Origin: a virus
Reading direction: 5' to 3' (one strand)
Length of the DNA stretch: 64,000 nucleotides
IMG/VR virus record: IMGVR_UViG_3300044953_000377
Coordinates: 1 to 64,000 of that record
Shown here piece after piece: positions 12,609-59,716 of the stretch (its first letter is position 1; every line of letters begins with the position of its first letter). Both the position numbers and the translations under genes were made by a program. The notes under the pieces are model-generated. The model was not told the DNA's origin and did no database searches. It saw only the letters and a list, made by a program, of their open reading frames with translations.

Positions 12609-12610
12609 AA

Positions 12611-12621
12611 TGTATATATTC
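12611..12621 (-). promoter_or_regulatory. GAATATATACA late-promoter-like element
   Basis: Read on the minus strand this is GAATATATACA, directly before the ATG at 12608. A similar GAATATATA precedes the gp25 gene. It supports the ATG at 12608 as start of the ATP-grasp gene. Confidence 0.4.
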
Positions 12622-12627
12622 TTAAAC

Positions 12628-12659
12628 AAAGAAAAAGCCCAGATTTTAATCTAGGCTTT
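12628..12659 (-). terminator. rho-independent terminator for the acidic-protein operon
   Basis: On the minus strand AAAGCC and AGAT pair with their complements around one mismatch and a four-base loop, followed by TTTTTCTTTG. It lies 27 bases after the stop of the poly-acidic protein gene and before the ATP-grasp gene, separating two minus-strand units. Confidence 0.75.
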
Positions 12660-41175: not shown

Positions 41176-42081
41176 ATGGGATTAGTAGACAGAAATAAAC
41201 TAGAGAAACCTAATACGGAGATATCGCATTATCTTGGTGTAGTTGTGGATAATAAAGATCCGGAATTTAAAGGAAGGGCTAAAGTTCGTGTATTTGGTAT
41301 TTTCGATGAGCTAGCTAATGCTGATCTTCCTTGGTCACATCAGAGATTTGAACAAAGCTACGGTCTGGGCGGAGGATCGGGAAGAATATCCGTGCCTAAA
41401 TTAGGATCGGTAGTGCATGTTCAATTTAACAACGGAAACTATTACAGTCCGGAATATAAAGCAGTACAGGAACTATCTCCTGATTTAATAGACGAAATTA
41501 GAGCTAGTTACGACGGAGCTCATTCTTTAATCTATGATGGTATAGAAAGGCTAAAGATGTACTATACTGTGGAGAAGGGATTAGTAATAGATTTAAAGGA
41601 GTCTAAGATAATAATAAGAAATGATAATTCTATACTAATTACCCATGCTGATGACACTGCATCGATTGAACTTAAAGGAGGTAAGATAACTAAGTATGCT
41701 GACCAAGAAATAGAAAACACTGCGGTAACTAGAATTAAGCACAGCTCCGAAGAGGTTTGGATGGATGGAAAAACTACCAATCTGGGGCACTCACCTTTGT
41801 TCTCAGCAGTTTGTGCGGAACCTTTGTGGGATTTCTTAAAAAAATTAGCTATATCAGTCGATAGTAAAATGCCAGCTACACCAGGGGTTAACTCAACTTT
41901 AGCATCTAGCTTCGAACAATTAGCAACAAGTCAGACCGTGAGGGTTACTAGAGAAAATGCTCCAGACTTTCCGACTGTACCTGCTGATGCTAACTCTCCT
42001 GTTGGTATACCTAATACGGGAACATCAGGAACATCAGGCACCAGTGGAACGTCAGGAACTAGCGGAATAACTGGAGTATGA
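41176..42081 (+). CDS. 5: baseplate central spike protein (gp5-like OB-fold)
   Basis: A 301-residue protein. The N-terminus has the gp5/VgrG OB-fold pattern: SHYLGVVVDNKDPEFKGRAK, VRVFGIFDE, then ISVPKLGSVVHVQFNNGNYY. Residues about 130-205 alternate short strands (GLVIDLKESKIIIRNDNSIL, ASIELKGGKITKYADQEIEN) as in a beta-helix needle. The T4 lysozyme domain is absent. A GTSGTSG array (42021-42063) forms the C-terminus before GITGV. The spike punctures the outer membrane in T4-type phages. Confidence 0.85.
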   Translation: MGLVDRNKLEKPNTEISHYLGVVVDNKDPEFKGRAKVRVFGIFDELANADLPWSHQRFEQSYGLGGGSGRISVPKLGSVVHVQFNNGNYYSPEYKAVQELSPDLIDEIRASYDGAHSLIYDGIERLKMYYTVEKGLVIDLKESKIIIRNDNSILITHADDTASIELKGGKITKYADQEIENTAVTRIKHSSEEVWMDGKTTNLGHSPLFSAVCAEPLWDFLKKLAISVDSKMPATPGVNSTLASSFEQLATSQTVRVTRENAPDFPTVPADANSPVGIPNTGTSGTSGTSGTSGTSGITGV

Positions 42082-42082
42082 T

Positions 42083-45000
42083 ATGGCAGGAAGTATAGAA
42101 TCTAGAATAGATGATTTATTAGGCAAGGATTTTTCCGAGATGACTACCGAGGAGATATTAAATATAATATCTGGTGGAAGTGATTTTAATATTCCTTATG
42201 AAGATCTACAATCTAAAGAGGGATTTGAAAAAGAGTTAGATAAAAGCCAAAAAGAGGTTAACTCTATTATAGAAAGTTTAAATCCCCAAAAGCCGCCTAT
42301 TCCTATAAAAGATATAGAAGATCTTTCCTGTAATTATGAAGGCGATGATTTATATAGCAGGATAATTTTAGAAACGCTCAAAAGGGAAGATATTAAGGTG
42401 TATAATGAACTTTTGGAGTCTGATGAATACAAAGGTAATCTACCTGTTTCGGAAAGAGATCTAGGGGTAAAAATAGCAGGCAACAGGGACCTTGGATTTT
42501 CTAAAAAAATACCTTCAGAAGGAATTACAAAATATCTTAGAAGCAAAAATCCTGAATTTTTAGAAAAAACAAACGAAAAAATATTTGATAATCTGGATCC
42601 TTTGTTATTGGGTAAACCTTCTAATTCTGGATCTAGAAAGAAAAGAAAAATGAATGTATTGGGATTTGAAATTCCTTTACAATTTATAATGAACGGAACT
42701 CAAATAGTTCACGTTAAAATTGGTGATGGAGAAATAAACTTAGACGGTGCATTAGAAAAAATAAACAGCATTCTAAAAACACAGAATAGTAATACTAATC
42801 CCTGTGATTTCAAAGACGTAGACGAAAATACATCCTCTGAAAGAATAGATGCTTTTGATGCTAACTTTTATCCCGACGGAGACGACCCAATAATAGATGA
42901 TGACTGTTTACCAGGTATACCTGAAGATCCTATAACTGGCGATCCTATTCTAACAAAATCTAGTTTTGATGAAACATTGGAAGATTTTTGTGATCCTCCA
43001 GTCTACGAATTTAGGAGAGAGGAAGTTAATGACCCCGAACCTCCTAGCGTGGATGTTGATGCTATAGATGCCTGTGTTTCTTCAGCTTTGGATGCAGGTA
43101 AAAAATTAGAAGAGGATGTAAAGCTTTTAGCTAGATGGCAAATGATAGAGAGAAATCTAGAGGAGATACTTTATCACTATGAAGCTATATACGAATATCA
43201 AAAATCATTATATGATAATTGGCTTTCAAGAGTACCAAAAAACGAGGGAGGAGATCCTACAGATCTTCAAATTGGAATTTCTATATTGACCTATAGGGAT
43301 CAGATTTCTATATACCAGAAAGAGTTAATAGATCAGATACAGAAATACAACGACGATAAGACTATATTTCTTGAGAATAATAACATATTCACTGAAGAGC
43401 TATTCCTTTTAGATGTTTATGCTACAGAGCTAAGTGATAGTGATACAGAACAACTTTTTAATGATCAGATAGATGCAGGACTATCTCCTGTTACATATAA
43501 TGATTCCACACAATCTTGGCCTGTTACTGAAGCGGTTCTTAGATTTAAAGAAAACGTAGAGGATATAAGATCTATCATGATAGAAGGCAACTTTATATCT
43601 GTTATAGAAAATAAAATACAAGAAACACAGGATCTACTAGACGCAGCGATATCAACACTAGCACAAAGAAAAAATGCTCCTGTTTCGGTAGAAGATGTAG
43701 AGAAATCTTTTCTTCCTCCGAATACTGCTACCTCAGATGTTTATGGACAGGGGAATTCTGCTCTAAACATAAACGAGAGAGTTTTTAAAAGTCCTTTACA
43801 ACTAAGTTTAACAACCGAGTCATATGCTTATGATTCTTATGGATATGATTTCTTAGAAGCACTAAAAGAATTTTCAGTAAGATATAAAACAAACTTTGTT
43901 AAATCTAGGGGGGAATTACAATTTGAGTTATCTTTCATTACCGATTATGGGTTTCCTTTACCTTATAAAAAAACAAAAAAACCCGCTAAGATAAGTTTTA
44001 AAGGAGCTTCTTCGCAGCCCCTATCTGAAGTAACAGAACCGGATGAAGAAAAAATAAAAATAGGAAACGAGCACGCAGAAAACGGTGGACTGCTTAGTGA
44101 TTATTCTCCCGAATATTTAAAATCTTATCAGTTCTTAAAGATTAACAATATAAGGAATGGATTTCCCGACGTAGCTAAATTCTATGACTTTATAGAAAAG
44201 ATAATAAAAAAGAATGATTCTAAAGAAAGCATAATTGAAAAAATAGTTGAAGACAGAGGAATACTTTATGGAAATCTTATAGAGAAGTCATCTTTTAATT
44301 GGCTATTCTTTACAGCAGAAGAAAGGGGAGATAATGATGCTAGGGATCCTTCTAAAACGAGACCTGCTAGTTTTAGTGCAGAAGGAGAGCCAACTCCGGT
44401 ATTCACAGATTTCTATAGTAATTTTAAAACTAAATGGAATGCTAAATATCTGGAGAATAAAAATCTCTATATAAATCCCGCTTTACAAAATCTCAGAACA
44501 CAAGCTATCAGAGCAGGTGAAGGATTAGCAAAGACTTTACCTGCTTCTGACGTTATAGGTATTAGAATTTTAGAAAACTATTTAGATGTAAAGAGAAAAT
44601 ATGAGCAGATAAAAGAAATTATGCTTATTTCTGCACAGAAAATACACGAGATAAACGAGACGATTAGTCCGGAGAACGTAGGTAAAAGATTTTCTGATAT
44701 AAAATGTGCAGGAGCTAACACCCCTCCTGCTGAAGACGATAGGGAGAACTGTCCTCCTGTTTGTTGTGGAGAACCCGGATCTGATTTTAAAACTGACAAC
44801 TATTTACTATCATCTCCGCCAAGCTCAGATTGCCCGACAATGTTTCAGAGATGTTGGTGGAAACAGTTCTGTAAGGATGTTACTAAAGTTGGTATACTTC
44901 CTTATCCTAACGGGCTTCCTCCAATAGAGGATCCTAAATATTTTCTAGCACAAGGGCCCACTATTAGGTTAGGATTTAAATATTGGCCGGTTGGGTACCT

Positions 45001-47185
45001 ACCTCCTGCGTTTCTTCCTATTCCTATTCCTAATCCAATAGACGGTAATCCATATATTAGGATTCCTTTACCTATGATTTGGACTATAGTTCCCCCGATA
45101 CTTATACCTCTTCCTTTTAATTTGGGAATACTTGTAATTTTTATACCTTTCATCGGGGGATTTATGCCTACCCCTTTAGTTTATATCAAGGAGTTTATAA
45201 CAGGTAGTTCACTTTTCTTAACCGGTATCAGAGGACCTAGATTTATACCAAGAAAATCTGATCCTAAAATAAAAGATCCATTAGAGAAAATAAAACAAGT
45301 ATTATCTTTTGGAATACCCGATAAATTGATTCCTTTACCAGGCTTCGGGCTAGATAATTTAGATTCAACCGCTAGAGTTTTGGGTGATATAAAATCTAAT
45401 ATTTCTAAAATATTTGATAGTGTTCCTCCTCCTGGTAACGTCCAAAAAATACGAGATCTACAAGAAAAAGAAAGAGCACTAAAAACAAGGCTAAGAGAAA
45501 AAGAGAGAGAATATAAAAATAAATCTGCTCTTATAGATTTACCTCCACCTGACATTTCTGCAGAGACAGAAGAACTAAAAGCAATAGTAAGACAGAGGAA
45601 ACATGCCCTAAAATCGGTAATAAATGATTATCTAAACAGAAGTATCCCTGATCCTAAATCAATATATTTTCCTAAGGATAAAGACAAGCTAAAGATAGAC
45701 ATTCCTGGTATAATAAAATCCCTTAGAATATTAAAGGAAATGAGAGCTAGTTTAGTCCCAGTTGATTGCCCTGATTACATAAACTTTAAGGACGAGATGA
45801 GAGAGGTGTTAAAGCTAATGAGAGTAGTTTGCCCTCCTAAGTACATAATACAAAATTTCGAAGTTGCTAATTCTAGTAAGATATTCATGAGGAAGGATAA
45901 GGATCCTAGAATTATGTCCGATGAAGAGTTTAGTAATTTAGTAAAAGAAATAAGGGGGGCATCATTATTAATAACTAGTGTTATTCTTAGGGGTAATAAA
46001 TTCTCAGTAATTAAAAAAGTTAGAGATGGTGCTTTTTCTGTAGTCGAAAGTGGAGAATTTGAAGGTGTATTTAAGTTCCCAGAAATTAAAATAACTAATT
46101 CTGCTCCTGGAGCTCTTAAATTTTTAAGAAAGAAAAATCCTATTATAGAGGCCATGAAGATAAGAATAATGGATGGCTTATCTAAGATAGATTACACTAC
46201 AGAAGATTTTTCTAGATATGTTAGATATGAAGGTGAAGATCCCATTTTAATAATTAGAGTGAAAGATCTTAAAAAATTAGTTTCTAAAAAACTAGGACTG
46301 AGCAGGATAGGACCTTTTGATCCAGTTAGACCCTTAGACGAAGAAGAACCGCTTATATCAAGATTTCCTTATCCAAAAGGTCCCTTATCTTGTCTCGGTT
46401 CACTTAATGGCGGATTTGGTAATGCTGTGGCTGCTTTTGAACTCCCAACAGTGTTTCCTCCAAAGCAAGATCAATTAACACAAATTTCTGGACTTGGCGG
46501 GACTATACAGATTACTATTCCAGGATCTGAGATAAAATCTTTTCTTATTGAAGGCCTTACAAAAGCATTGGATGCTGGAGCATTAGAGAAACTATTACCA
46601 GAAATAAACGATGCTAATTCTCCTAAATTTTTAAATCTTGAACCTAGCGACATACAGAAGTTAAGTAAGAATCTAGTTACAAATCTGATAAATCCGGATT
46701 CCCCTGACGTTCCTCCTTTTTTAAATGTATTAAATGTTCCAGTTTTTCCACCTGCTAGACCAACAGATATGATTGAGCAGGCTTTAATAGGATTAGGTGC
46801 ACCTCCTCCAGCTAGAATAGTTTATAGCTTATTTTGGGCTTATTTTAAAAGTCTTCCTAAAACTCCTTTATCTGATAAAATAGTTTTACCAGTTGTTACT
46901 GCTTCATCTGAGTTAATTTCTAAAATACCTTGGGCCCTTGCTGTACTTATTGGTAGGAATGTTCTAAACATAATAAATCCTATAGCAATGAGTGATGACC
47001 ATCCAGTTTGGAGAAGAATGAGCCTTAAGAATACATACTATGTTATTTATATAGATGAATTTTTAAGAAGCGCAGCTGATGTATCTGGATTATTTAAATT
47101 TTTCTTTGGAGCTGCAGATCCAGTATATCCTGTGCCAGAACTCCCTGAAGAACTCAATAAAGCTTTTAACATAAAAAAATATTAA
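42083..47185 (+). CDS. very large virion protein of unknown role (1700 residues)
   Basis: A 1700-residue protein, one base after the spike gene stop. It has acidic N-terminal and middle segments with coiled-coil helices (residues about 340-560 and 1130-1180), a Cys-rich patch near 890-920 (NCPPVCCGE; MFQRCWWKQFCKD), and a striking Pro/Ile/Leu-rich hydrophobic stretch at about 967-1034 (PIPIPNPIDGNPYIRIPLP and onward). That stretch could insert into a membrane or form a tape-like element. I do not recognise a family; context says baseplate or tail, and ejection into the host envelope is possible. Confidence 0.7.
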   Translation: MAGSIESRIDDLLGKDFSEMTTEEILNIISGGSDFNIPYEDLQSKEGFEKELDKSQKEVNSIIESLNPQKPPIPIKDIEDLSCNYEGDDLYSRIILETLKREDIKVYNELLESDEYKGNLPVSERDLGVKIAGNRDLGFSKKIPSEGITKYLRSKNPEFLEKTNEKIFDNLDPLLLGKPSNSGSRKKRKMNVLGFEIPLQFIMNGTQIVHVKIGDGEINLDGALEKINSILKTQNSNTNPCDFKDVDENTSSERIDAFDANFYPDGDDPIIDDDCLPGIPEDPITGDPILTKSSFDETLEDFCDPPVYEFRREEVNDPEPPSVDVDAIDACVSSALDAGKKLEEDVKLLARWQMIERNLEEILYHYEAIYEYQKSLYDNWLSRVPKNEGGDPTDLQIGISILTYRDQISIYQKELIDQIQKYNDDKTIFLENNNIFTEELFLLDVYATELSDSDTEQLFNDQIDAGLSPVTYNDSTQSWPVTEAVLRFKENVEDIRSIMIEGNFISVIENKIQETQDLLDAAISTLAQRKNAPVSVEDVEKSFLPPNTATSDVYGQGNSALNINERVFKSPLQLSLTTESYAYDSYGYDFLEALKEFSVRYKTNFVKSRGELQFELSFITDYGFPLPYKKTKKPAKISFKGASSQPLSEVTEPDEEKIKIGNEHAENGGLLSDYSPEYLKSYQFLKINNIRNGFPDVAKFYDFIEKIIKKNDSKESIIEKIVEDRGILYGNLIEKSSFNWLFFTAEERGDNDARDPSKTRPASFSAEGEPTPVFTDFYSNFKTKWNAKYLENKNLYINPALQNLRTQAIRAGEGLAKTLPASDVIGIRILENYLDVKRKYEQIKEIMLISAQKIHEINETISPENVGKRFSDIKCAGANTPPAEDDRENCPPVCCGEPGSDFKTDNYLLSSPPSSDCPTMFQRCWWKQFCKDVTKVGILPYPNGLPPIEDPKYFLAQGPTIRLGFKYWPVGYLPPAFLPIPIPNPIDGNPYIRIPLPMIWTIVPPILIPLPFNLGILVIFIPFIGGFMPTPLVYIKEFITGSSLFLTGIRGPRFIPRKSDPKIKDPLEKIKQVLSFGIPDKLIPLPGFGLDNLDSTARVLGDIKSNISKIFDSVPPPGNVQKIRDLQEKERALKTRLREKEREYKNKSALIDLPPPDISAETEELKAIVRQRKHALKSVINDYLNRSIPDPKSIYFPKDKDKLKIDIPGIIKSLRILKEMRASLVPVDCPDYINFKDEMREVLKLMRVVCPPKYIIQNFEVANSSKIFMRKDKDPRIMSDEEFSNLVKEIRGASLLITSVILRGNKFSVIKKVRDGAFSVVESGEFEGVFKFPEIKITNSAPGALKFLRKKNPIIEAMKIRIMDGLSKIDYTTEDFSRYVRYEGEDPILIIRVKDLKKLVSKKLGLSRIGPFDPVRPLDEEEPLISRFPYPKGPLSCLGSLNGGFGNAVAAFELPTVFPPKQDQLTQISGLGGTIQITIPGSEIKSFLIEGLTKALDAGALEKLLPEINDANSPKFLNLEPSDIQKLSKNLVTNLINPDSPDVPPFLNVLNVPVFPPARPTDMIEQALIGLGAPPPARIVYSLFWAYFKSLPKTPLSDKIVLPVVTASSELISKIPWALAVLIGRNVLNIINPIAMSDDHPVWRRMSLKNTYYVIYIDEFLRSAADVSGLFKFFFGAADPVYPVPELPEELNKAFNIKKY

Positions 47186-47241
47186 CTTCTTGGAAATTTT
47201 AAGGCAATTTTACACTACAAACAACGATAAACCAAAATAAC

Positions 47242-48351
47242 ATGAAAAACAAAAATTTTAGTTCCTTCGATTATGACACACCTGAAAGAGAAAGATTAGA
47301 AGCTATGTATAACGGAACCTTTCCGGAGGAAAATAAAAAAATAACAGGAAAGGACATACAGAACAATTCTTCTGAGCAGATAACCATAACATCTGTTGAT
47401 AACGAAAGGGGTGTTTCCTTAGGAGAAACCCCCTTTGGTCAGACTATTATAATCGACACCAAGAAGGAAAAAAAAAAGATGAGAAAGCTAGGATATCCCG
47501 TCATGGAAATAAATCCTGGACAGTCTATAGATGTTGTAATACACAAAGATTCATCCGGAGCATTTAACGGATCTATTTCTGCTGGATACGAAAAAGCACT
47601 TAAAAGAGAATTGCACAGATCGGTCAAAGAAGAAGATTGCGCATTTAAAGTTAGAGTTAAAAATGTTTGTAACGGTGGATTCATGGTTGATCTATCTGGA
47701 ATAGAGTGTTTCCTTCCAGGAAGTCTAGCTGCAGCAAACAGAATTATGAATTTTGCTGGCTATATTGGTAAAGAACTCATGATAATGGTTGAGATATATG
47801 ATCAAAAAAGAGATATCTTTGTTGTATCGTTTAAAAAATATCTTAGAAAAATTATAGATAAGGAGGTACAGAATCTTTCATTCTCCACTAAATATCAAGG
47901 AGTTGTTATCGGACTATCCAACAATGGAGTATTTGTTGAATGGGGCGAGATCTACACTGGTATAATTCCAATTGATGATTCTAACAGGGAGCATCTAGAA
48001 AAATATCAATCTGGGGACAATATAGAATTCTATGTGATTGATATTAAAAATCCACAAAGAATAAACTTATCTGCCATACAGCCAAATGAAAGAATGAAGA
48101 ATATCCAAGAAATAAAGGATACTTCCTCCGAAGTTTTAGGAGAAAATACCGATTTGAAAATATATAAAGGAGAGGTTACTAAAATTAAAACTTTCGGGGT
48201 TTTTGTAAAAATGGAAAACGGATTAATCGGCCTTATCGAAAAGGAGAAATTAGTAAGCTCTATTAAAGAATACGAGGTTGGGCAATCGGTGGATTTCTCG
48301 ATCTTAAGTGTAGATAGTTCTACTCTTAAAATACAATTAATTGAGAAATAA
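47242..48351 (+). CDS. S1-domain RNA-binding protein
   Basis: A 369-residue protein with three S1-type OB folds: about residues 130-200 (CAFKVRVKNVCNGGFMVDLS), 213-280 (YQGVVIGLSNNGVFVEWGEI) and 306-369 (YKGEVTKIKTFGVFVKMENG). Each has the V-x-G-F/GVFV signature of ribosomal protein S1. The N-terminal 125 residues are charged and lack a domain. Bacteroidota mRNAs mostly lack Shine-Dalgarno sites, and S1 helps load such mRNAs; a phage S1-like protein could steer ribosomes to phage mRNAs, though its place amid baseplate genes is unexplained. Confidence 0.85.
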   Translation: MKNKNFSSFDYDTPERERLEAMYNGTFPEENKKITGKDIQNNSSEQITITSVDNERGVSLGETPFGQTIIIDTKKEKKKMRKLGYPVMEINPGQSIDVVIHKDSSGAFNGSISAGYEKALKRELHRSVKEEDCAFKVRVKNVCNGGFMVDLSGIECFLPGSLAAANRIMNFAGYIGKELMIMVEIYDQKRDIFVVSFKKYLRKIIDKEVQNLSFSTKYQGVVIGLSNNGVFVEWGEIYTGIIPIDDSNREHLEKYQSGDNIEFYVIDIKNPQRINLSAIQPNERMKNIQEIKDTSSEVLGENTDLKIYKGEVTKIKTFGVFVKMENGLIGLIEKEKLVSSIKEYEVGQSVDFSILSVDSSTLKIQLIEK

Positions 48352-48354
48352 AAG

Positions 48355-49797
48355 TTGGCTAATTTACTTACTAATGATTTTTTCTACTCTACTAAGCTAG
48401 GATTTGAATTTGAGTTTTACAGCAACTTAAATAGAAATGAGATAGCAAACCAATTAGGAAAGGTATTAGGAAAAAAAGTACTTCTCTTTAAAAAATACCA
48501 TTCTAGCTTAAAACCTACTAAGGACATTTTTAAGTTAGAACCGGATTACTCAGGAGGATCCAAGATGGTTGAATTCATCACGGGCCCTCTTCCTTATTTT
48601 GAGGCTATAGTAATTCTGATTAAAACCTTAAAATGGATAGATGAGAATGGCTACACAGATAAGAAATGTGCTTTTCAATTTGGATTAAGCGTCGACGCAT
48701 CCATATATCCGGATGTGCCTCCGATGAATCAGCTTAATATTCTTAAGTATATTTTAGGATTCGATGAAAACTTTATATACAAAAGATTTCCGGAAAGATC
48801 TGGATCTTTGTATGCTAAATCAATTAAAAGAATAGTTCCTGTTAACAAATTTGTTGACCCTACTAATGTGTCTTTTATAGACAGGAATTTATTTGAGGTA
48901 CCCTTGGAAAAAAATATGGGTATCAATTTCTTAAAACTTCCAGAGGGATATTTTGAGGTTAGATACCTAGGTGGAAAAGACTACCAGAAAAGATACACAG
49001 CACTAAAAGAAGTAATAGACTATATAATCACTTATACTGTAGACGTTTTAAGATTTAATACTGGATTCACAGAAAACGACTTAAAAGTGTTAAGAATGTT
49101 CTTAAATGAAATTTATAAGAACTCATCAACCTTTATAGATCCGGACACGTTCCAGAAAAATTATCCACATATGAATATCATGGTAGATCTTCGATCTGAC
49201 CCTCAAATATTAAGGTCCTTTTTTATTACAATAAGAGAGGTTCTTTATGATTTGATAGTGGAAAATAATATAAAGGAAGGACTTATAAATTATGATAGTT
49301 CATTAGGTAAATTTCAGCTTAAGGATATAAAAACAACTAGGGCGTATCTTCTTAAGGATTATGATATTCTTGAGGGTGAAATAGCTGGTAATATATTAAA
49401 TTGTAGGATGTTTACTTGCAAATTAAACGACTGTACAATAGAAGAATGTGATCTAATAACAAACAACGAAATAAATCGATCTAAGATAATGATTTCAGAT
49501 CTTTATTTCACTAATAAAGTGCATGATAGTTATATTGACAATAAAGATAAGGAAATAAATTGTGAGGTATTTGGGGGAATAATAAGATCCGGATTTATTG
49601 GAAAATTGGCTAGTATATCACCAGAAACCGAAGTTGTTAATGACACAGAAGATGATAAGAAGTTGAAAGGAAGTTTGAAAAAGAAACAATTCCCTAATAG
49701 GAACGAAGGAGATAGCCCAGCACAGCCTGCTAGATTCTCTGATAATAATTCTAAGCCTTCTGGTATACCTGGAATAAATTCCAAATCAAATAATTAA
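48355..49797 (+). CDS. amidoligase-like protein
   Basis: A 480-residue protein with a TTG start right after the S1 gene. KLGFEFEFYSNLNRNEIANQ is the opening strand of amidoligase/GCS-type enzymes (GxExE), followed by LEPDYSGGSKMVEFITGPLP (the ExDxSxxGxExxTxPL pattern) and CAFQFGLSVDAS, where family members have xHxHxs. The central His-x-His is weakly conserved here, so activity is uncertain. Family enzymes form amide or isopeptide bonds. A Cys-rich segment (residues about 345-365) and a Pro/Ser-rich tail follow. Confidence 0.65.
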   Translation: MANLLTNDFFYSTKLGFEFEFYSNLNRNEIANQLGKVLGKKVLLFKKYHSSLKPTKDIFKLEPDYSGGSKMVEFITGPLPYFEAIVILIKTLKWIDENGYTDKKCAFQFGLSVDASIYPDVPPMNQLNILKYILGFDENFIYKRFPERSGSLYAKSIKRIVPVNKFVDPTNVSFIDRNLFEVPLEKNMGINFLKLPEGYFEVRYLGGKDYQKRYTALKEVIDYIITYTVDVLRFNTGFTENDLKVLRMFLNEIYKNSSTFIDPDTFQKNYPHMNIMVDLRSDPQILRSFFITIREVLYDLIVENNIKEGLINYDSSLGKFQLKDIKTTRAYLLKDYDILEGEIAGNILNCRMFTCKLNDCTIEECDLITNNEINRSKIMISDLYFTNKVHDSYIDNKDKEINCEVFGGIIRSGFIGKLASISPETEVVNDTEDDKKLKGSLKKKQFPNRNEGDSPAQPARFSDNNSKPSGIPGINSKSNN

Positions 49798-49803
49798 ATA
49801 GCC

Positions 49804-50583
49804 ATGACCGAAGCAGATTTAATCCAGGAAATAAGAGATGACATCTCTCATTCCTGTGCCTTACCATATAACCTAAACGAGCAGGAGATAAAAAGAATTA
49901 TAAAAAGGGCGAGATCTTATTTTTATGATAACTATCAATATGCAGTAGAGGATAGAATATTTGTTTTGGGAAAAGAATTATTTTCTACCCAATCTTTTAG
50001 AGCTACTAGACAAATACAAATGCCATCATGCGTTAGATCTATTTACGAGGTTAGGGAGGTAAACGGATCCGGTTTAATTGGTACACCCGATAAAGATTTT
50101 GGGGATTCTAAATTATTAGGATCGGAACTTATGTTATCTCCGTTTGCAGGAGACAACTTGGTTTATAGAACAGTACTTTATTCTTTCTTTGATCTTGCTA
50201 AGGCATATTTGTTAGAAACATATGCTTTTAACTACAACAAGAACACAAAGAGGCTTACTATTCTTGGTAGAGATCCTAATAGAATATATCAAACAGATGG
50301 AGGAACTTCCACAACGCAATTTACGGGTACTGATGTGGGCGTAAGAGCTTACATAGATATTTCAGAAGAAAGTCTATATGATGATGAGTTATTTGTTAGA
50401 TACTGTCTTGCAGAAGCTAAGATTAACATTGGTAGATTGTTGGGAACATTTGAATATAATCTCCCAGGAGGGGTTAGAGTTAACTATAATAATATACAAA
50501 CTCTAGGTACAACTGAAAAACAGGAAATTATCCAAATGATAAAAGACGAGAATACTCCTTCATACTTCTTGCAGTGGAATTAA
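49804..50583 (+). CDS. virion structural protein of unknown role
   Basis: A 259-residue protein next to gp25 and gp6 genes. The start (LIQEIRDDISHSCALPYNLN, then IIKRARSYFYDNYQYA) and the mid LFVRYCLAEAKINIGRLLG suggest a folded helical/strand protein. A baseplate or neck role is inferred from position only. Confidence 0.55.
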   Translation: MTEADLIQEIRDDISHSCALPYNLNEQEIKRIIKRARSYFYDNYQYAVEDRIFVLGKELFSTQSFRATRQIQMPSCVRSIYEVREVNGSGLIGTPDKDFGDSKLLGSELMLSPFAGDNLVYRTVLYSFFDLAKAYLLETYAFNYNKNTKRLTILGRDPNRIYQTDGGTSTTQFTGTDVGVRAYIDISEESLYDDELFVRYCLAEAKINIGRLLGTFEYNLPGGVRVNYNNIQTLGTTEKQEIIQMIKDENTPSYFLQWN

Positions 50584-50621: not shown

Positions 50622-50993
50622 ATGGCAAGATATTCCGAAATTTATCCAAGAAATCCTGACGACCCAAATTACAAAGAGGGGCTTTTACATACTGACGATG
50701 AGGTAGAGATTCTCATAGGTATGATAAAAAACTGTATGTTAACTAGGCCTGGTGAAGTTCTTGGAGATCCTTATTTTGGGATAGACTTAGAAGGTCTTAT
50801 TTTTGATCTAGAAGTGGATCAGAACACACTAACTAGAGCAGTAGATCTACACTTACTTACATACGTACCCTTAGCTTATTCCCTTTTTAATGTTGAATTT
50901 CAGGTGGGTTTTATTAAAGGAGAAACTAGGGACGCTTGTGTTATAGATTTCGCAATAAAAGGAAATCCTATATTAGGAATTAAAATATTATAA
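50622..50993 (+). CDS. 25: baseplate wedge protein gp25-like
   Basis: A 123-residue protein of typical gp25 length (T4: 132). EVEILIGMIKNCMLTRPGEV followed by LGDPYFGIDLEGLIFDL is the family core (IxxxIxxxLxTxxGExxxxPxFG), and the C-terminus has the usual strand pair. It is part of the wedge core with gp6. Two bases separate it from the next gene. Confidence 0.88.
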   Translation: MARYSEIYPRNPDDPNYKEGLLHTDDEVEILIGMIKNCMLTRPGEVLGDPYFGIDLEGLIFDLEVDQNTLTRAVDLHLLTYVPLAYSLFNVEFQVGFIKGETRDACVIDFAIKGNPILGIKIL

Positions 50994-50995
50994 AG

Positions 50996-52693
50996 ATGGA
51001 TTTATTATCAAAAAACAGAGCAAAGATATCGGATTTATTATCTCAAACATTTGAGCTAATTCAAGCAAGGTATGGAATGTCTAATCAGTTGTTCACAGTC
51101 GCTTCTGTGTGGGGACAGATAATATTTGTATTAGACAACCTTTCCCAATTTGTCTTATTCTTTATAGAGGATTCGATAACGGAGTTAAATATAAACACGG
51201 CTACAAGGGAATCATCAATATATGGACTGGCAACTTTAGCTGGACACAATCCCACCAGGAACATATCTGCTAAAGGAGAAGTTAGTATAAAATGGAATGG
51301 TAAAAATATAGAAGATATAGGGGGGAGTGCAGTTCTTATACCTAGTAACGCTCAAATAAAATGTGTGAATAATGGTAAAATTTATCTACTTAAATTTCCA
51401 CAAGAATATACAAGATTAAACCTGGACAGCACTTCACAGTTATCCTGTTCAATAATGGAGGGCACGCTTGCAGTTAATCGATATACTGGAGGAGGAGGAC
51501 TCCTTCAAAGTTTTAATATCTCATCTAGAGGTACTTCCGGTATAGAAAACTTTGAGGTTTATGTTAAAGTTAATGGGGTAGAATGGAAAAGATACGATTC
51601 CTTATATGATATACCAAGAAACGGATTAGGGTACCTAGTAAAAAGTTCAATTATATCAGGTATTGATATTTTCTTTGGTAATAGAGATTTTGGATTACCC
51701 CCTGCTGCAGGAACTGTGATAGAGGTTACTTATCTTGAATCTGCTGGAGCTAATGGTAATATAAATGTTGAAAATTCTTCTCAAGTTATATTTAATTTCG
51801 ATTCAGAAGGTACTGATTTATTTGGAAACACTATTAGCCTATCTGAAGTTCTACAAGTTACATGTACTATTGCACCACAGATGGGGGCAAACCAAGAGTC
51901 TGTAGATTTAACAAGATTAATAGCTCCTAAGACATCTAGAAGTTTTGTTTTAGCCAACCCAACTAACTACATAACATTTTTTGAAAAATTTGGACAGTTT
52001 TCAATAATAGAGGCTTTCACAACATTTGATGACCAGTATATCGATGATGATAATGTCATATACTTAATACTGGTTCCAGATATCCAGCTAACACTAAAAA
52101 GTAACGAGACTTATTTTGATATCCCTGTTTCTAGATTTAAATTAACACAGCCACAAAGAGATAGGATATACCAGCTTCTTGATGAAAGCGGACAAAAGAT
52201 AGTTACCACCGAGGTTAAAATATTAGACCCCGTTATAAAAAGGTACGTCGTAAATATAGCATTAACAATGTTTGAAGGTAATGATCCTGACACATTAAAA
52301 ACAACTATAACAAACACCCTCAGCGACTATTTCCTTAATATCAGAAGGAGAGATAAAATACCTAAGTCCGATTTAATTGCCGCTGTTGAAGAAATAGAAG
52401 GAGTTGATTCGGTTTTTCTTTACTTTGTTGGCGAAGAAAACGAAGCTGCTAAGGCACAGAATCCTAATGCACCAGAGATAGGATTTGACGAATTTGGAGA
52501 CATAATAATAGGCAAGGACGAAATAGTTGTTATATCTGGAGGATGGGACGACAGAAATGGTATATTCTACGATCTTGGAGCAGGTATGGAAACTCTCTCA
52601 TCTATAAATATAGACATAAGAGCGATTGTTCCTTATACATATAATTCAAGAGTAAATGGATTACTTAAGAGTTCTTTAAAAACAGGAAACTAA
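50996..52693 (+). CDS. 6: baseplate wedge protein gp6-like (J-like)
   Basis: A 565-residue protein following gp25, as in many contractile-tail systems. It has an N-terminal helical part (QTFELIQARYGMSNQLFTVA) with TRESSIYGLATLAGHNPTR, a Gly/Ser-rich middle and, near residue 420, YVVNIALTMFEGNDPDTLKT, the gpJ/gp6 C-terminal fold, followed by IPKSDLIAAVEEIEGVDSVF. T4 gp6 is 660 residues. The family builds the wedge core. Confidence 0.85.
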   Translation: MDLLSKNRAKISDLLSQTFELIQARYGMSNQLFTVASVWGQIIFVLDNLSQFVLFFIEDSITELNINTATRESSIYGLATLAGHNPTRNISAKGEVSIKWNGKNIEDIGGSAVLIPSNAQIKCVNNGKIYLLKFPQEYTRLNLDSTSQLSCSIMEGTLAVNRYTGGGGLLQSFNISSRGTSGIENFEVYVKVNGVEWKRYDSLYDIPRNGLGYLVKSSIISGIDIFFGNRDFGLPPAAGTVIEVTYLESAGANGNINVENSSQVIFNFDSEGTDLFGNTISLSEVLQVTCTIAPQMGANQESVDLTRLIAPKTSRSFVLANPTNYITFFEKFGQFSIIEAFTTFDDQYIDDDNVIYLILVPDIQLTLKSNETYFDIPVSRFKLTQPQRDRIYQLLDESGQKIVTTEVKILDPVIKRYVVNIALTMFEGNDPDTLKTTITNTLSDYFLNIRRRDKIPKSDLIAAVEEIEGVDSVFLYFVGEENEAAKAQNPNAPEIGFDEFGDIIIGKDEIVVISGGWDDRNGIFYDLGAGMETLSSINIDIRAIVPYTYNSRVNGLLKSSLKTGN

Positions 52694-52942: not shown

Positions 52943-55900
52943 ATGACTCTTCAAAATCTTTTATTCTTCGATAAAAAAGGCGACCAATACATTTTTAAAT
53001 GGAACAGTACCAATTGGGAAGGATCAGTTCTTTTTCCTATAGTTTCCGAGAAACTGTTTGAGGTACAGCACATCTTTATAATAGAAAAATTTTTAGATCT
53101 TTCAGCAGAAATAAAATATGGATTTCCACACTCTCATGGGACTAGTCCGGGAACACCCGTATGGAGAACAAGATGGGAATCTAATTATGATGGAAAAACT
53201 GATGTATCTAATATCATATACACTTATGAATTAGGAGTTGATGGTGAACTAGATGCACCAGTGCTAGTTAAGACAAATAGTGTAGAATTTTATCCTGAAG
53301 TAGTACCAGGGGACACGGTAGATTCCCCAAGTGGTATAGTTGTTACTAGCGATATTAATGAGTCATCGATGCAAATTAATATAGCTTTAAATTCGGATAC
53401 GGAAGGAATATATGATCGAACTTTTATTCTGGAAGATTATACTGATCCTAATAATCCAGTTACCATTTTAAAGTTGGGATTTCACGGTGAGGTTGAGGGA
53501 GAAGATAGTAGACTTGCAGTCCTGCTAAGAAACTTCGGCAGGGAGTTTAATCAATCGGATGCTTTAATAGTAAGAGAGGGGGACATCAAAGAGCAGTTTC
53601 CTGATTACGAAATAATTAATAATAAAAGAAAGGAGTTACTATTAACGGGTGAAAGTATATTCCCTTATCTCGGATCATACAAATCTCTATTTAACGCTAT
53701 AAAGTTTTTTGGATATTATGATTTAAGAATCAAGGAGTACTGGCTTAATATAAAGAAAGATGAAGCAGACACACTAACTCCTCTTCAACAAAACCAAAAA
53801 ATATTAAATGAATTAAGTATCCCTAATATAGAGGGACAAAGTAGATTGGAACTTATAAGTAGTTTGATTAAGGATGAAAACGAGGGAAAATTTAAACAAA
53901 TAGAAATATACGGTAAAAGAAAGGATGGAACTTTTGGATTAAAAAAACAATTTGAACAATTATTTCCGTCTAAATCTTTTAAGAAGACTTCACTATTTGG
54001 ACTTTTTTACGATATAAATAGAGTAGTAGAAGACCAGGATGAAGATCAGTACGGATATCCTATAGTAGAAGATGCGTTTGCTTTTAGTCCGGAGGAAGTA
54101 CTTATAAAGCTATTTGGATTAAAAGAAAGATTGAAGAGAGATTATCTACCACTTAACGCTAGGATAATTGATATAACTGGAGAGGGCGTATACTTTAATA
54201 TCTACAAAACTAGAGGATGGACAGATCAATTAGACATAAGTGAGATAAAGGGCGGTATAAAAGTAGACTTCAGTGTGTTCCCTCAAGATGGATACATTGA
54301 AGATCTTAGACCTTTTTATATTAAACCTAATCAATCAGGCCTTTTGTACCCAGCAGTAAACGGAACAGAGGAGGGTATAAGTTATTATGGAAATACGGTA
54401 GACCCGTATTCTAATTTTCAAGAATATTCTCTATCTGCAATTCCTGCTTTAGAAAGTGCAGTACAATCTTTTTACGATGATGTAAAAAACGGAACAATGC
54501 CTAAATTTTTAGGGGATGGTGACTATGATTATCCGGGGTATAAGTTATTTTCAAATGGCTCAGAACATGTGTTTCCTGCTGGATGTCCTCTAATAATTAA
54601 AAATAATACTTTTGTTCTACCTTGGGACGATGTGAGTGGAAGTTGGAATTCTTTTGATACAACAATAACTAGCACATCTTTACAGATAGCTAGTTACACT
54701 AGCACTACTTCTAATAATCCCGGTACTCCTTTACAGACTGTTAACAGTACTACCACTTTTACTTTACCAACAACTTTTCCTTCCAGCGTAACAATTAATA
54801 TAGGAGCAGGAAATGACTGGTTTGATACCGCGTCTCCACAAGTTTTGTTTGTTAGAGTGGAATCTGTAAGTTCTCCTGGTAATCTGGTACTTGGATATTG
54901 TAGTGCAGGAGATTATAACACACTGACAGGGGACCTTTATATTCAAATGATGTACACTAGGGGTTCTGGTGAATATTCAAACTGGAAAGTTACTCCTACT
55001 AATGTGGGATTTAGCACATACACTTTTGATTATTATGAAAATTTTATACATTCAAATGGATTTTATTCTTGGAATAGAATACCTTATCTAGATTTCTATG
55101 AAATTGAGTGGACTATATACAAAGACGGCGATTCAAGCCCATATTTTTTCCAGATAAGAGGGGGTCTTCCTGAATTAGAAACCATAGTTCATTTTGTACC
55201 TTATGTTGGGAATTACAATGTTAAGTGCAGAGTTTGGGACACTTTAAATTCTATTTCTTTAGGAATAAAAAGATCTATACTGAAAGTGGATCGAAGATCA
55301 ATAGAGCTAAACACCATCACTAGATTTAGAGAATCTGAAATATACAACTGGGATAATTCTCCTTTAAAATGGGAAAGCTATCCCTCACAATGGATTTTTC
55401 CAGTAGAGAATACGAATAAGATCCTGGATATTTCAGATGTAATAGAAAACTATCCAGAATACTCTAATAATTTTAATGAGGGCCAACAGTGTGAAGTTCT
55501 AAGCAAAATCCCAGAAGTAAAAGCAACAATAGAATTCGAAATAGGAGTTTCCCTGATCGATATTAATAATATTCTTAGCACTTATAATGGATCTGGATAT
55601 TCTTTAGCTATAGTAACAACAAATATTCCTCACGGATATTCCTCTGGCGACACTGTGTGGATATATGATTCTACTGGAGCACCTTATGGACAATATCCAA
55701 TAACAGTAACTGGTACTACTACATTTGAGATACCAGAGATAGTTATCACTGCTATAACTGGTGGATATGTTTATGGATCTGGTAATATTAAAATTACCTC
55801 CGACTCAATATTAATAGCGGATTGTAATTTTCAGGGGGATCTTAATGCTACTACGAGTTTAATTTATAGTACGATAAATTCTTCTCCGCTGAATCCTAAA

Positions 55901-58900
55901 TACAAGGTTATAAATCTAATAGATTCAACAACACCAGGATATAAAAAATTCACTCTTCAGGCCCCTAATAACAGCGGGAATTTATGGAACGGTAAAATTT
56001 TAAATGTACAAGTTACTGGATCAATACTTACGTCATTAACATCTGGTGCTTTTTCTGGAGGTTCTAACGAGACTGAAGAATACTTAGAATATAATTTTAC
56101 AAATCTTCCTAATAAAAATATAAGATTCTGGGGAACTAAGAGTCTTTCGTGGGATACTTTCGAAGATTTTCAGTTCGATAAAGCTTATGCCCATACATGG
56201 GATATGTACGATTACCACAATGACTGGTTAGGTGGATTTAGTTTATATTCTTTACAATATGGAGACAGGGTTAGGGTAACTAAAGATTCATTGGGAATAG
56301 TATTTGGTGAAACCGATTCACCTGGCAATAACTATTTGGACTTAAGTGAAGCTGCTAGTCAATTAAAAAATTCAGTAGATGATAACATAAAAAGGTTCGA
56401 CTACACAGTTAGAGGATTTTCTGAACTTCCTAATAATTTTTACCAAAACAATACTCCTATTTCTCCAGATCTTAGTACCAATCCAGGTCCTAAAAACATA
56501 ACATCTAAATTCTACAAAGTTCCTACATATTCTCCTATTCTTTTTCAACCTACCGGAATAGCTTGGGACGCTGATGGAGATATATGGGTTACTGGTGAGG
56601 ATGTTATTAAATTCGACGGTGCCAACTATACAACTTATGATTCTTCCAATAGCGTTATGCCCGGAGTTTCTATTCTTACTAATTGTATAGAGATGGACAG
56701 GAATGATGTTAAGTGGATAGGAATAGAAAATAGCTTAACACCACTAGTTAAAATAAACGAGAAAGATCCGACAGATAGCTTTGCTTACTCTGTTAGTGAC
56801 TTCGTTGATAATGGAGGAAACCCTGTTAGTCCTATAACAGCTTCTAGTATAAATGCAATAGAAATAAACCCACAAAGCGGAGATATATTTGCAGCATTTA
56901 CTTGTAACTCATCTCCTTCTTTCGATGGACTTTTATTCTATGATTCTCATGCTAAATCATGGTCTCTTTACACAACATCTAATTCAGATATTCCTTCAGA
57001 TAATATTAGGGATCTTAGATTAGAATACTACGGAATGAATAAATGGTACCTGTGGATAGCAACAGATGCTGGATTATCTAGATTTAACGGAATAGATTTT
57101 AAAAATTATACAAGCACTAATTCTGGATTACCCGATAACGATGTTTATTCGATAGAACTAGATAAATTGGATCACAAGTGGATCGGCACTGGATCAGCCC
57201 TAGCTTACTGGGATCATATTAGATGGGCAGTATGGAATCCTTCTACAAATCCCGAATTATCCGCTGGTAAGTTTGGAAATATAGTTGAGACAGGCAATGC
57301 TAATATATGGTTTACTATAGACCAAACAGCATCTCCAGGAGGGACTGAATTATACTTCTTCGATGGATATTTCTTTACTAAGGTTTTATATAGAAATGAT
57401 GGAGTGTCTTTAATAAATCCTTGTAATGTTTCTCATGGAAAAACACTACTCTCAGCTCCATGGAAAACTATTAAGAATGGAGAAACAACATATCCAAAAA
57501 ATCTTCTCTTCGTTACTGACAATGGAGAGATAGGAAAGCTTGATTATATTATACCACATATCCATGCAACATCTAAATCCGTAGGGACTAATGGATGGGA
57601 TTTTGTTTACCATGACACATCAACTCCATTACCTTCAGTAGAATACATTAATAACAGTGGAATTGGAACATCCCAATTAGGATTTAGCTTTATAGTTGGC
57701 CCTTTTAATGACAATATCACACTGAACTCAGATTACACTAGACCTGACATGCCTAATGTTGACAGATACTCTTGGTATAAGCCTATTTGGCAGCGTTATA
57801 GCATCGATCGTCTTAAAGATCAGTTTCCATCTTTAAATATCGACGATGTCTTTTTATACGCTCCTCTACGAGATATTCTAAACGAAAAAGCAAACAAAGA
57901 ACCCTATTGGAGAAACTCACAGATTGAAAGAATAGCACAGAAGAAATCAAGGGATCTTTTTGAAAACTTTGAATGGGTTATAACTCTAGGAAACAGCAGT
58001 CCAGATCAGGGTGTAAAAGTCACAGTTGACAACGAGGGAGATATTATAGCAATCGGCGATTTTACTGGTACTATATTCATGGGTGAGGTTAATAATATTG
58101 GTACACAAGACATTTATTTAAACAGTCTAGATCAAGGAGTGTACATCGCTAAATATAATAAAGGAGGGGTTATTCAATGGGCAACATCTATATCTTCGAC
58201 ATCTCCACAAGGTCCTATTTATGCCAGATCCGTTATAACTGATTCTAATGGTAATATCTACGTTGCTTGTGACAATAATCTTACAGGATTTATTGAAATA
58301 AATAAATATGATTCCGATGGTATTTTATTAAATACAATTACTGTCACTGTTACTCCAGATCAATTCCTAGGTGATATAAAAGTAGACAAGTATGAAAATA
58401 TTTATATCTGTGGAGCATTTGAGGGAACACTTACATTAGGTACATACACACTTACTTCTACCGGACAAGAATCTGCTTTCGTTGCAAAAATAGATCCTTC
58501 CTTAACATTTGTGTGGGCTAAACAACTCACCACTACAACATATTCTAAAGCTTATGAGCTAGCAGTTCTTAAGGAGGAATATCTATATCTAACCGGAGTT
58601 TTTGACACACAAATTAATCTTGGTCCTATAACGCTAAACGGTATAGGGAATCATGATATGTTTGTCGCTAAATTTTATACAGGGGACGGAACATGCTTAT
58701 GGGGGGATAGCTTTGCTTATGATGCTAGCACATCATTTGGGAACACCTCTATATGTATAGATCCTAAAGGTCATGTATTAGTTACCGGATCTTATGAGGG
58801 AACTATAGAAATAGAAAACCAGAAGATATCATCATTCCCAGGAACAACTGATATCTTTGTACTTAAACTTCTTTCCACTGGAAAATTAATTTGGTTAAAA

Positions 58901-59716
58901 ATGTGTGGAGGTCAAGGAGGAGACACTGCTTACGATATAGAAAGTGACTCCGAGGAAAACGTTTATATAACAGGATCATATACTTCCCCCGCATATTTTT
59001 CACCGGAAGAAATAGAATCAAGAGGGGGTACGGACATATACCTCACAAAGTTTAATAAAGAAGGTCTGCTAGTAGACATAGTTACTGCCGGTGGAATCAA
59101 TAACGATTCTGGAGCGGATCTTGTGTTAGACGCGGAAGAAAACATTTATATAACTGGATACTTTGAGGGTGAATCCGAATTTTCACCTTATGTTGTTCTT
59201 TCACCTCCGGGGGGTTCTTTAGATTCTTTCCTAGGTAAAATACCTAAACAAAGATTCCAGAGTGGGTTAAAGATAGGGAGCGTTCAATCTTGGCTAGGAT
59301 CGCATTCTTGGTCTTGGAAGGAGGAAAAATTATATGATAGGGAGTTTGAAATTCCACTTGCCACTACTATATTTATAAATCCTATCGATTCATTAATCCC
59401 CGGTAAAAAGAATCATATCTGGACTCTTATTGACACGGAGACTGAAGAAACAATAGTGAAGCTAAGAAGAACACCATACTTTATATGGACTTTCTTAAAA
59501 CCTGGTTTCTATACTATCTACTGTGAACTTCAAGATGCAAACGGAAATATCTACCAGACTGAACACGAAGGAAAGATAAGAGTAATAGATCACAAAGAAG
59601 CTTTCGCCGGGGATTTAAAACCGGAAGTTGTAAATCCGGAAGACTACTTACTAAGATCCATCTATTATGATAGAAAAGAATTAGGATTCCCTCCTTATTA
59701 TAAATTTGAGATTTAG
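52943..59716 (+). CDS. giant baseplate/tail protein with two predicted beta-propellers
   Basis: A 2257-residue protein at the gp7 position. Residues about 1-460 look like a wedge/structural part. Residues about 1195-1560 carry repeats of two-component-regulator-propeller type (GIAWDADGDIWVTGED, KWIGIE, LWIATDAGLSRFNGIDF, HKWIGTGSALAYWD). Residues about 1675-2105 carry SBBP-like repeats (GNIYVACDNN, YENIYICGAFEGTLTLG, YLYLTGVFDTQINLG, GHVLVTGSYEGT, NVYITGSYTSP, NIYITGYFEGE). The last 150 residues include an immunoglobulin/PKD-like strand set. Propellers commonly bind sugars or proteins, so host contact is plausible. T4 gp7 (1032 residues) lacks them. Confidence 0.82.
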   Translation: MTLQNLLFFDKKGDQYIFKWNSTNWEGSVLFPIVSEKLFEVQHIFIIEKFLDLSAEIKYGFPHSHGTSPGTPVWRTRWESNYDGKTDVSNIIYTYELGVDGELDAPVLVKTNSVEFYPEVVPGDTVDSPSGIVVTSDINESSMQINIALNSDTEGIYDRTFILEDYTDPNNPVTILKLGFHGEVEGEDSRLAVLLRNFGREFNQSDALIVREGDIKEQFPDYEIINNKRKELLLTGESIFPYLGSYKSLFNAIKFFGYYDLRIKEYWLNIKKDEADTLTPLQQNQKILNELSIPNIEGQSRLELISSLIKDENEGKFKQIEIYGKRKDGTFGLKKQFEQLFPSKSFKKTSLFGLFYDINRVVEDQDEDQYGYPIVEDAFAFSPEEVLIKLFGLKERLKRDYLPLNARIIDITGEGVYFNIYKTRGWTDQLDISEIKGGIKVDFSVFPQDGYIEDLRPFYIKPNQSGLLYPAVNGTEEGISYYGNTVDPYSNFQEYSLSAIPALESAVQSFYDDVKNGTMPKFLGDGDYDYPGYKLFSNGSEHVFPAGCPLIIKNNTFVLPWDDVSGSWNSFDTTITSTSLQIASYTSTTSNNPGTPLQTVNSTTTFTLPTTFPSSVTINIGAGNDWFDTASPQVLFVRVESVSSPGNLVLGYCSAGDYNTLTGDLYIQMMYTRGSGEYSNWKVTPTNVGFSTYTFDYYENFIHSNGFYSWNRIPYLDFYEIEWTIYKDGDSSPYFFQIRGGLPELETIVHFVPYVGNYNVKCRVWDTLNSISLGIKRSILKVDRRSIELNTITRFRESEIYNWDNSPLKWESYPSQWIFPVENTNKILDISDVIENYPEYSNNFNEGQQCEVLSKIPEVKATIEFEIGVSLIDINNILSTYNGSGYSLAIVTTNIPHGYSSGDTVWIYDSTGAPYGQYPITVTGTTTFEIPEIVITAITGGYVYGSGNIKITSDSILIADCNFQGDLNATTSLIYSTINSSPLNPKYKVINLIDSTTPGYKKFTLQAPNNSGNLWNGKILNVQVTGSILTSLTSGAFSGGSNETEEYLEYNFTNLPNKNIRFWGTKSLSWDTFEDFQFDKAYAHTWDMYDYHNDWLGGFSLYSLQYGDRVRVTKDSLGIVFGETDSPGNNYLDLSEAASQLKNSVDDNIKRFDYTVRGFSELPNNFYQNNTPISPDLSTNPGPKNITSKFYKVPTYSPILFQPTGIAWDADGDIWVTGEDVIKFDGANYTTYDSSNSVMPGVSILTNCIEMDRNDVKWIGIENSLTPLVKINEKDPTDSFAYSVSDFVDNGGNPVSPITASSINAIEINPQSGDIFAAFTCNSSPSFDGLLFYDSHAKSWSLYTTSNSDIPSDNIRDLRLEYYGMNKWYLWIATDAGLSRFNGIDFKNYTSTNSGLPDNDVYSIELDKLDHKWIGTGSALAYWDHIRWAVWNPSTNPELSAGKFGNIVETGNANIWFTIDQTASPGGTELYFFDGYFFTKVLYRNDGVSLINPCNVSHGKTLLSAPWKTIKNGETTYPKNLLFVTDNGEIGKLDYIIPHIHATSKSVGTNGWDFVYHDTSTPLPSVEYINNSGIGTSQLGFSFIVGPFNDNITLNSDYTRPDMPNVDRYSWYKPIWQRYSIDRLKDQFPSLNIDDVFLYAPLRDILNEKANKEPYWRNSQIERIAQKKSRDLFENFEWVITLGNSSPDQGVKVTVDNEGDIIAIGDFTGTIFMGEVNNIGTQDIYLNSLDQGVYIAKYNKGGVIQWATSISSTSPQGPIYARSVITDSNGNIYVACDNNLTGFIEINKYDSDGILLNTITVTVTPDQFLGDIKVDKYENIYICGAFEGTLTLGTYTLTSTGQESAFVAKIDPSLTFVWAKQLTTTTYSKAYELAVLKEEYLYLTGVFDTQINLGPITLNGIGNHDMFVAKFYTGDGTCLWGDSFAYDASTSFGNTSICIDPKGHVLVTGSYEGTIEIENQKISSFPGTTDIFVLKLLSTGKLIWLKMCGGQGGDTAYDIESDSEENVYITGSYTSPAYFSPEEIESRGGTDIYLTKFNKEGLLVDIVTAGGINNDSGADLVLDAEENIYITGYFEGESEFSPYVVLSPPGGSLDSFLGKIPKQRFQSGLKIGSVQSWLGSHSWSWKEEKLYDREFEIPLATTIFINPIDSLIPGKKNHIWTLIDTETEETIVKLRRTPYFIWTFLKPGFYTIYCELQDANGNIYQTEHEGKIRVIDHKEAFAGDLKPEVVNPEDYLLRSIYYDRKELGFPPYYKFEI

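Follow-up and report, generated by a model that had tools for sequence, protein, structure and literature searches.

A phage-encoded four-domain homolog of ribosomal protein bS1 that probably acts on the host 30S subunit

The window analyzed here, a 64,000-nucleotide stretch of the IMG/VR virus record IMGVR_UViG_3300044953_000377, contains a gene (47242..48351, + strand; the open reading frame, strand and coordinates are exact) that encodes a 369-aa protein with S1 domains and is located among genes for tail and baseplate proteins. Is this protein a phage version of ribosomal protein bS1, a component of the virion, or an RNA-binding protein of some other kind? The S1 domain is not ribosome-specific, and a 2019 survey of viruses left S1 out for this reason (PMC6375957); the 2020 analysis of huge phages reported possible rpS1 proteins in phages poor in Shine-Dalgarno (SD) sites and noted that a true phage rpS1 is hard to confirm (PMC7162821).

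A Pfam search identifies S1 domains in three stretches of the protein (E=4.7e-20), and this family matches all 45 aligned phage relatives. An AlphaFold2 model built from 45 phage sequences contains four S1/OB folds and an N-terminal helix. Thus, the original prediction of three S1 folds in a protein among baseplate genes holds for the folds and the location but not for their count, the undercount being due to a degenerate first domain that escapes Pfam. The pLDDT of the model is 82 and the pTM is 0.55, so that the individual folds are surer than their mutual arrangement. The N-terminal helix (residues 13-28, 47278..47325, + strand; residues 13-26 in the model) resembles the helix that precedes domain D1 in Bacteroidota bS1 and is followed by the degenerate OB1 (residues 43-111, 47368..47574, +), which occupies the position of D1 in an alignment with Bacteroidota bS1, OB2 (residues 134-196, 47641..47829, +), OB3 (residues 213-279, 47878..48078, +) and OB4 (residues 306-369, 48157..48348, +). 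The protein ends after OB4 and so has only part of the six-domain set of Gram-negative bS1. The dN/dS ratio of the gene (0.07-0.13) indicates purifying selection.

Several searches converge on bS1. A phmmer search against PDB ranks bS1 first (2e-21), with an alignment that spans late D1 through D4; among all NCBIfam families, rpsA is the best match, above every other S1-domain family, although the score against the rpsA equivalog TIGR00717 (91.4 bits) is far under its cut-off of 577 bits. Among solved structures, Foldseek matches the model best to bS1 from a 30S mRNA-delivery complex (2.5e-22); the whole-chain TM-scores are modest (0.37), which is to be expected when domains are flexibly linked. 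The S1/OB array is colinear with D1-D4 of bS1 by phmmer, alignment, AlphaFold2 and Foldseek alike. A comparison with virion proteins yields no PHROG match below 0.1, and the top folds found by Foldseek are those of bS1. Taken together, the sequence comparisons and the model give good support to the view that the phage protein is a true derivative of bS1 that lacks D5-D6 rather than a generic S1-domain protein. A direct origin from Bacteroidota was considered and rejected given that E. coli S1 gives the protein a higher score (79.6 bits) than the best of the Bacteroidota S1 proteins compared (65.4 bits). The FDWD motif of the host proteins was not used as evidence either: an F[DN]W motif is present in all 80 Bacteroidota bS1 proteins sampled and the motif is found also in Lak phage, but the phage clade of the window carries only FDYD- or FEYE-like variants, and the divergent clade lacks the motif.

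In E. coli, S1 contacts uS2 through a helix whose F5 and F9 stack on F32 of uS2 and through K43, which enters the zinc pocket of uS2, and F120 and F130 of its second OB domain face the SD region (PMC10123108). Aligned Bacteroidota bS1 proteins contain a helix of the LExxYDxTL type directly before D1. A profile of this host helix scores 14.2 bits on residues 15-28 of the phage protein, compared to a maximum of 12.1 bits in 1320 shuffles and 6.6 bits in tiles of other phage proteins. Thus, a helix of the uS2-docking type, complete with an aromatic residue, is present, and the signal fades in the divergent clade (1.9 bits in one member, L084). The motif of the N-terminal helix seems to be duplicated in tandem (GYEPEVRELLNEKYTDYFEENF and QYKPDEFTALNDLYENYYSKNF) in two S1 proteins, L088 (407 aa) and L102 (415 aa). 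Y23, F147 and F157 of the phage protein, which correspond to F9, F120 and F130 of E. coli S1, are invariant where aligned. The loop-2 lysine equivalent to K43 is not kept in the phage clade, where G66-Q67 are invariant instead, and is retained in several huge phages (L113-L116). On the other side of the putative interface, Bacteroidota uS2 retains the aromatic residue at position 32, H18 and the zinc-pocket residues (E. coli numbering, mapped by eye).

Conservation is highest in OB2, with a mean column identity of 84%. In OB3 and OB4, the positions that we take to form the RNA surface, as judged from the PNPase S1 domain and an alignment by eye, include F231, D267 and R273 of OB3 and F318 and F321 of OB4, all of which are invariant among the aligned phage S1 proteins; the classical S1 RNA-surface histidine is missing in both domains.

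The S1 gene holds a fixed place among tail and baseplate genes in all relatives of its clade. Upstream, all on the + strand, are a gp5-like baseplate OB protein (41176..42081; Pfam Phage_base_V, 1.3e-4; PHROG baseplate, 2.9e-14) and a 1700-aa protein without a family match (42083..47185) that directly adjoins S1 here and in most relatives. Downstream, on the same strand, are an amidoligase-like protein directly adjacent to S1 (48355..49797; Pfam Amidoligase_2, 0.0012, below the cut-off, and synteny), an Ad2-like neck or head-tail adaptor protein (49804..50583; PHROG, 7e-9), a weak match to the gp25-like baseplate wedge protein (50622..50993; PHROG, 0.0012) and a gp6/baseplate-J-like wedge protein (50996..52693; PHROG, 1.8e-27). 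IMG/VR relatives with identities between 95% and about 43% retain this gene order, although some have additional genes inserted and a few lack a detectable 1700-aa protein. In the 462-kb record LR756500 (31% identity), S1 is still located between the gp5-like and amidoligase-like genes, and the 1700-aa and gp25-like proteins were not detected at this locus. With the neck protein (49804-50583) as bait, chosen to avoid bias from an S1-based search, S1 is present in 71 of the 71 contigs with enough upstream sequence. The amidoligase-like gene (48355-49797, +) always adjoins S1 in this clade and is far from S1 in other huge phages. Further downstream (52943-59716, +), a 2257-aa protein, perhaps a tail-tip or host-contact protein, contains a region (residues 1660-2075) that resembles SBBP beta-propeller repeats (E=3e-31, below the family cut-off).

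With respect to the host, relatives of the capsid protein come from phages that infect Prevotella, Tenacibaculum, Flavobacterium and Chryseobacterium (one, PAU, is listed under Sphingomonas), so that the S1-bearing freshwater clade probably infects Bacteroidota, and the proposal of a host group lacking SD sites is reasonable, if indirect. The predicted A-rich leaders are real as well: among 116 genes with confined starts (first ATG with a nearby upstream stop), A makes up 58% of positions -15 to -2 compared to 38% further upstream. SD-like 5-mers occur in two of these leaders, with 0.9 expected from shuffles and two in a control stretch, that is, without enrichment. The 56-nt gap before the S1 start codon (47186..47241, +) is itself A-rich and has no SD-like site near the ATG. 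However, in MaF61 and PTm1, Bacteroidota phages without a detectable S1, the leaders are equally SD-less and A-rich (A content of 52% and 58%, in small samples of 35 and 36 genes). A-rich leaders thus appear to be general among phages of this kind and uninformative on S1; their use as an S1-specific signal is rejected by this comparison, and the original proposal that S1 directs ribosomes to phage mRNAs through them is not supported. That phage rpS1 and the lack of SD sites go together, as published, could be explained simply by a shared host group. A different signal, GATATATA, is found directly upstream of many start codons (22 of the 116 leaders, with about one expected from shuffles) and occurs 30 times on the + strand and 6 times on the - strand of the whole record (e.g., at 387, 4369, 6601, 33327 and 60493, +); it is not present upstream of the S1 gene. 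This motif is possibly a phage promoter that yields short A-rich leaders. The promoter motifs TAnnTTTG and T4 TATAAATA are not enriched.

These features are best compatible with the part of the original prediction under which the phage protein replaces or competes with host S1, a claim strengthened by the colinear D1-D4, the docking-type helix, the invariant OB2 and RNA-surface residues, and the position in the tail/baseplate operon. In E. coli, D1-D3 constitute the minimal active S1, which keeps 30S binding and most of the initiation activity, D4 helps, and loss of D5-D6 has a limited effect (PMC3858243); by this token, D1-D4 would be enough for the phage protein. Bacteroidia ribosomes hide the anti-SD, with the help of bS6, and addition of Flavobacterium johnsoniae bS1 roughly doubles initiation on an SD-less message (PMC9976891). 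Under the proposed mechanism, S1 would be produced as part of the tail/baseplate operon at the time of virion protein synthesis, probably late, the timing being read solely from operon position. Docking on uS2 of the host would involve the N-terminal helix and OB1, with OB2 placed at the channel through which mRNA exits and OB3-OB4 predicted to bind single-stranded mRNA. On 30S subunits, the phage protein may then substitute for host bS1 or add to its supply, and it may assist initiation on messages that lack SD sites. As judged from sequence and model, it is probable, with a substantial margin of doubt, that this bS1 without D5-D6 takes the host S1 site on the 30S subunit and acts in initiation, probably late in infection. 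This reading is weakened by the score under the rpsA cut-off, the loss of K43, the fading of the helix and the missing histidine in OB3 and OB4, and also by the fact that related cultivated phages manage without S1.

The same docking features would serve in a decoy that takes the place of host bS1 and, being without D5-D6, hampers messages dependent on these domains, favoring phage messages by subtraction. Such host shut-off appears unlikely given the invariant RNA-surface residues of OB3 and OB4 and the limited effect of D5-D6 loss in E. coli (PMC3858243). The fixed site among tail and baseplate genes throughout the clade could instead mean that an OB-rich protein was co-opted for the structure or assembly of the virion or baseplate. 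The S1 homolog of Lak phage, however, is encoded close to genes for an RNA ligase and a DnaB-like helicase, a replication and RNA context that makes a purely structural role unlikely. Within 15 kb of S1, none of the tail genes of the window was detected in Lak or in any of four other huge phages. Furthermore, bS1-specific features are retained, and five cultivated relatives by capsid protein (PTm1, pT24, MaF61, PAU and MA9V-1) have no S1-profile match; S1 therefore does not mark the capsid clade as a whole. The case for a purely structural role is thus weakened, and a virion component is considered quite improbable. Least probable is an RNA-binding factor acting off the ribosome, e.g., in phage mRNA turnover or stability: S1 domains are also found in PNPase and RNases, and T4 is reported to affect RNA decay through host S1 (PMC9409239), but the phage protein has no nuclease domain and keeps the docking-type helix along with OB1-OB2.

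The replacement of host bS1 might be one element of a larger arrangement. The opposite strand of the window (11115-12629, -) encodes a RimK-family glutamate ligase whose score of 146 bits exceeds the subfamily cut-off and whose C-terminal region is retropepsin-like. In E. coli, RimK modifies ribosomal protein bS6, and given the part of bS6 in hiding the anti-SD in Bacteroidia (PMC9976891), a link of the phage ligase to translation is possible. The 148-kb record, possibly an incomplete one, yielded no bS21 partner; bS21 genes (L204-L209) come from four huge-phage records and from two IMG/VR contigs in which S1 is encoded as well. A specialized late 30S platform, in which the D1-D4 S1 replaces host bS1 together with the RimK-family ligase and, in some relatives, phage bS21, and which re-tunes mRNA selection on SD-ignoring ribosomes, is a speculative and rather doubtful extension.

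Phage S1 as a kind is already known. The protein shares with bacterial bS1 (rpsA) the D1-D4 order, the pre-D1 helix, the OB2 core GGF...FLPGS and the RNA-surface aromatics, and differs in being phage-encoded, in the absence of D5-D6 and the K43 contact, and in scoring far under the rpsA cut-off. The possible rpS1 of huge phages (PMC7162821), with homologs found in Lak and other huge-phage records, is likewise a phage-encoded S1-domain protein associated with hosts and leaders without SD sites, whereas the S1 gene of the window belongs to a T4-like clade whose contigs measure about 100-245 kb, lies in a tail/baseplate operon and encodes four domains. Lak S1 differs from it both in location and in the absence of a detectable D4, which is not hidden by TAG recoding because the stop codon is TAA. 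Two BFVD entries, an S1 motif protein of Virus NIOZ-UU157 and a 30S ribosomal protein S1 of an uncultured marine phage, resemble the protein of the window in length (373-380 aa) and in fold (Foldseek, 1.6e-30 and 9.5e-27), both designations being database names only. The bS1 of Microcystis phage PhiMa05 is also phage-encoded and proposed to replace the host protein, but comes within a larger set of ribosomal proteins traced to a Vampirovibrio-like source (PMC13157829). The bS21 of Bacteroidetes myoviruses, another phage-encoded 30S platform protein, is located near structural genes and expressed late in the same kind of host, but is a different protein (PMC9723584). What is new here is a clade-wide core S1 gene in T4-like phages, its D1-D4 architecture and the evidence against a generic S1-domain reading.

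Given that the ribosome-clamping part of S1 is retained, these phages can probably load their own S1 onto host ribosomes. A compact four-domain S1 that has a docking-type helix and occurs in all testable members of a freshwater clade opens the way to a test of 30S remodeling via S1 by phages, in bacteria whose ribosomes do without SD pairing.
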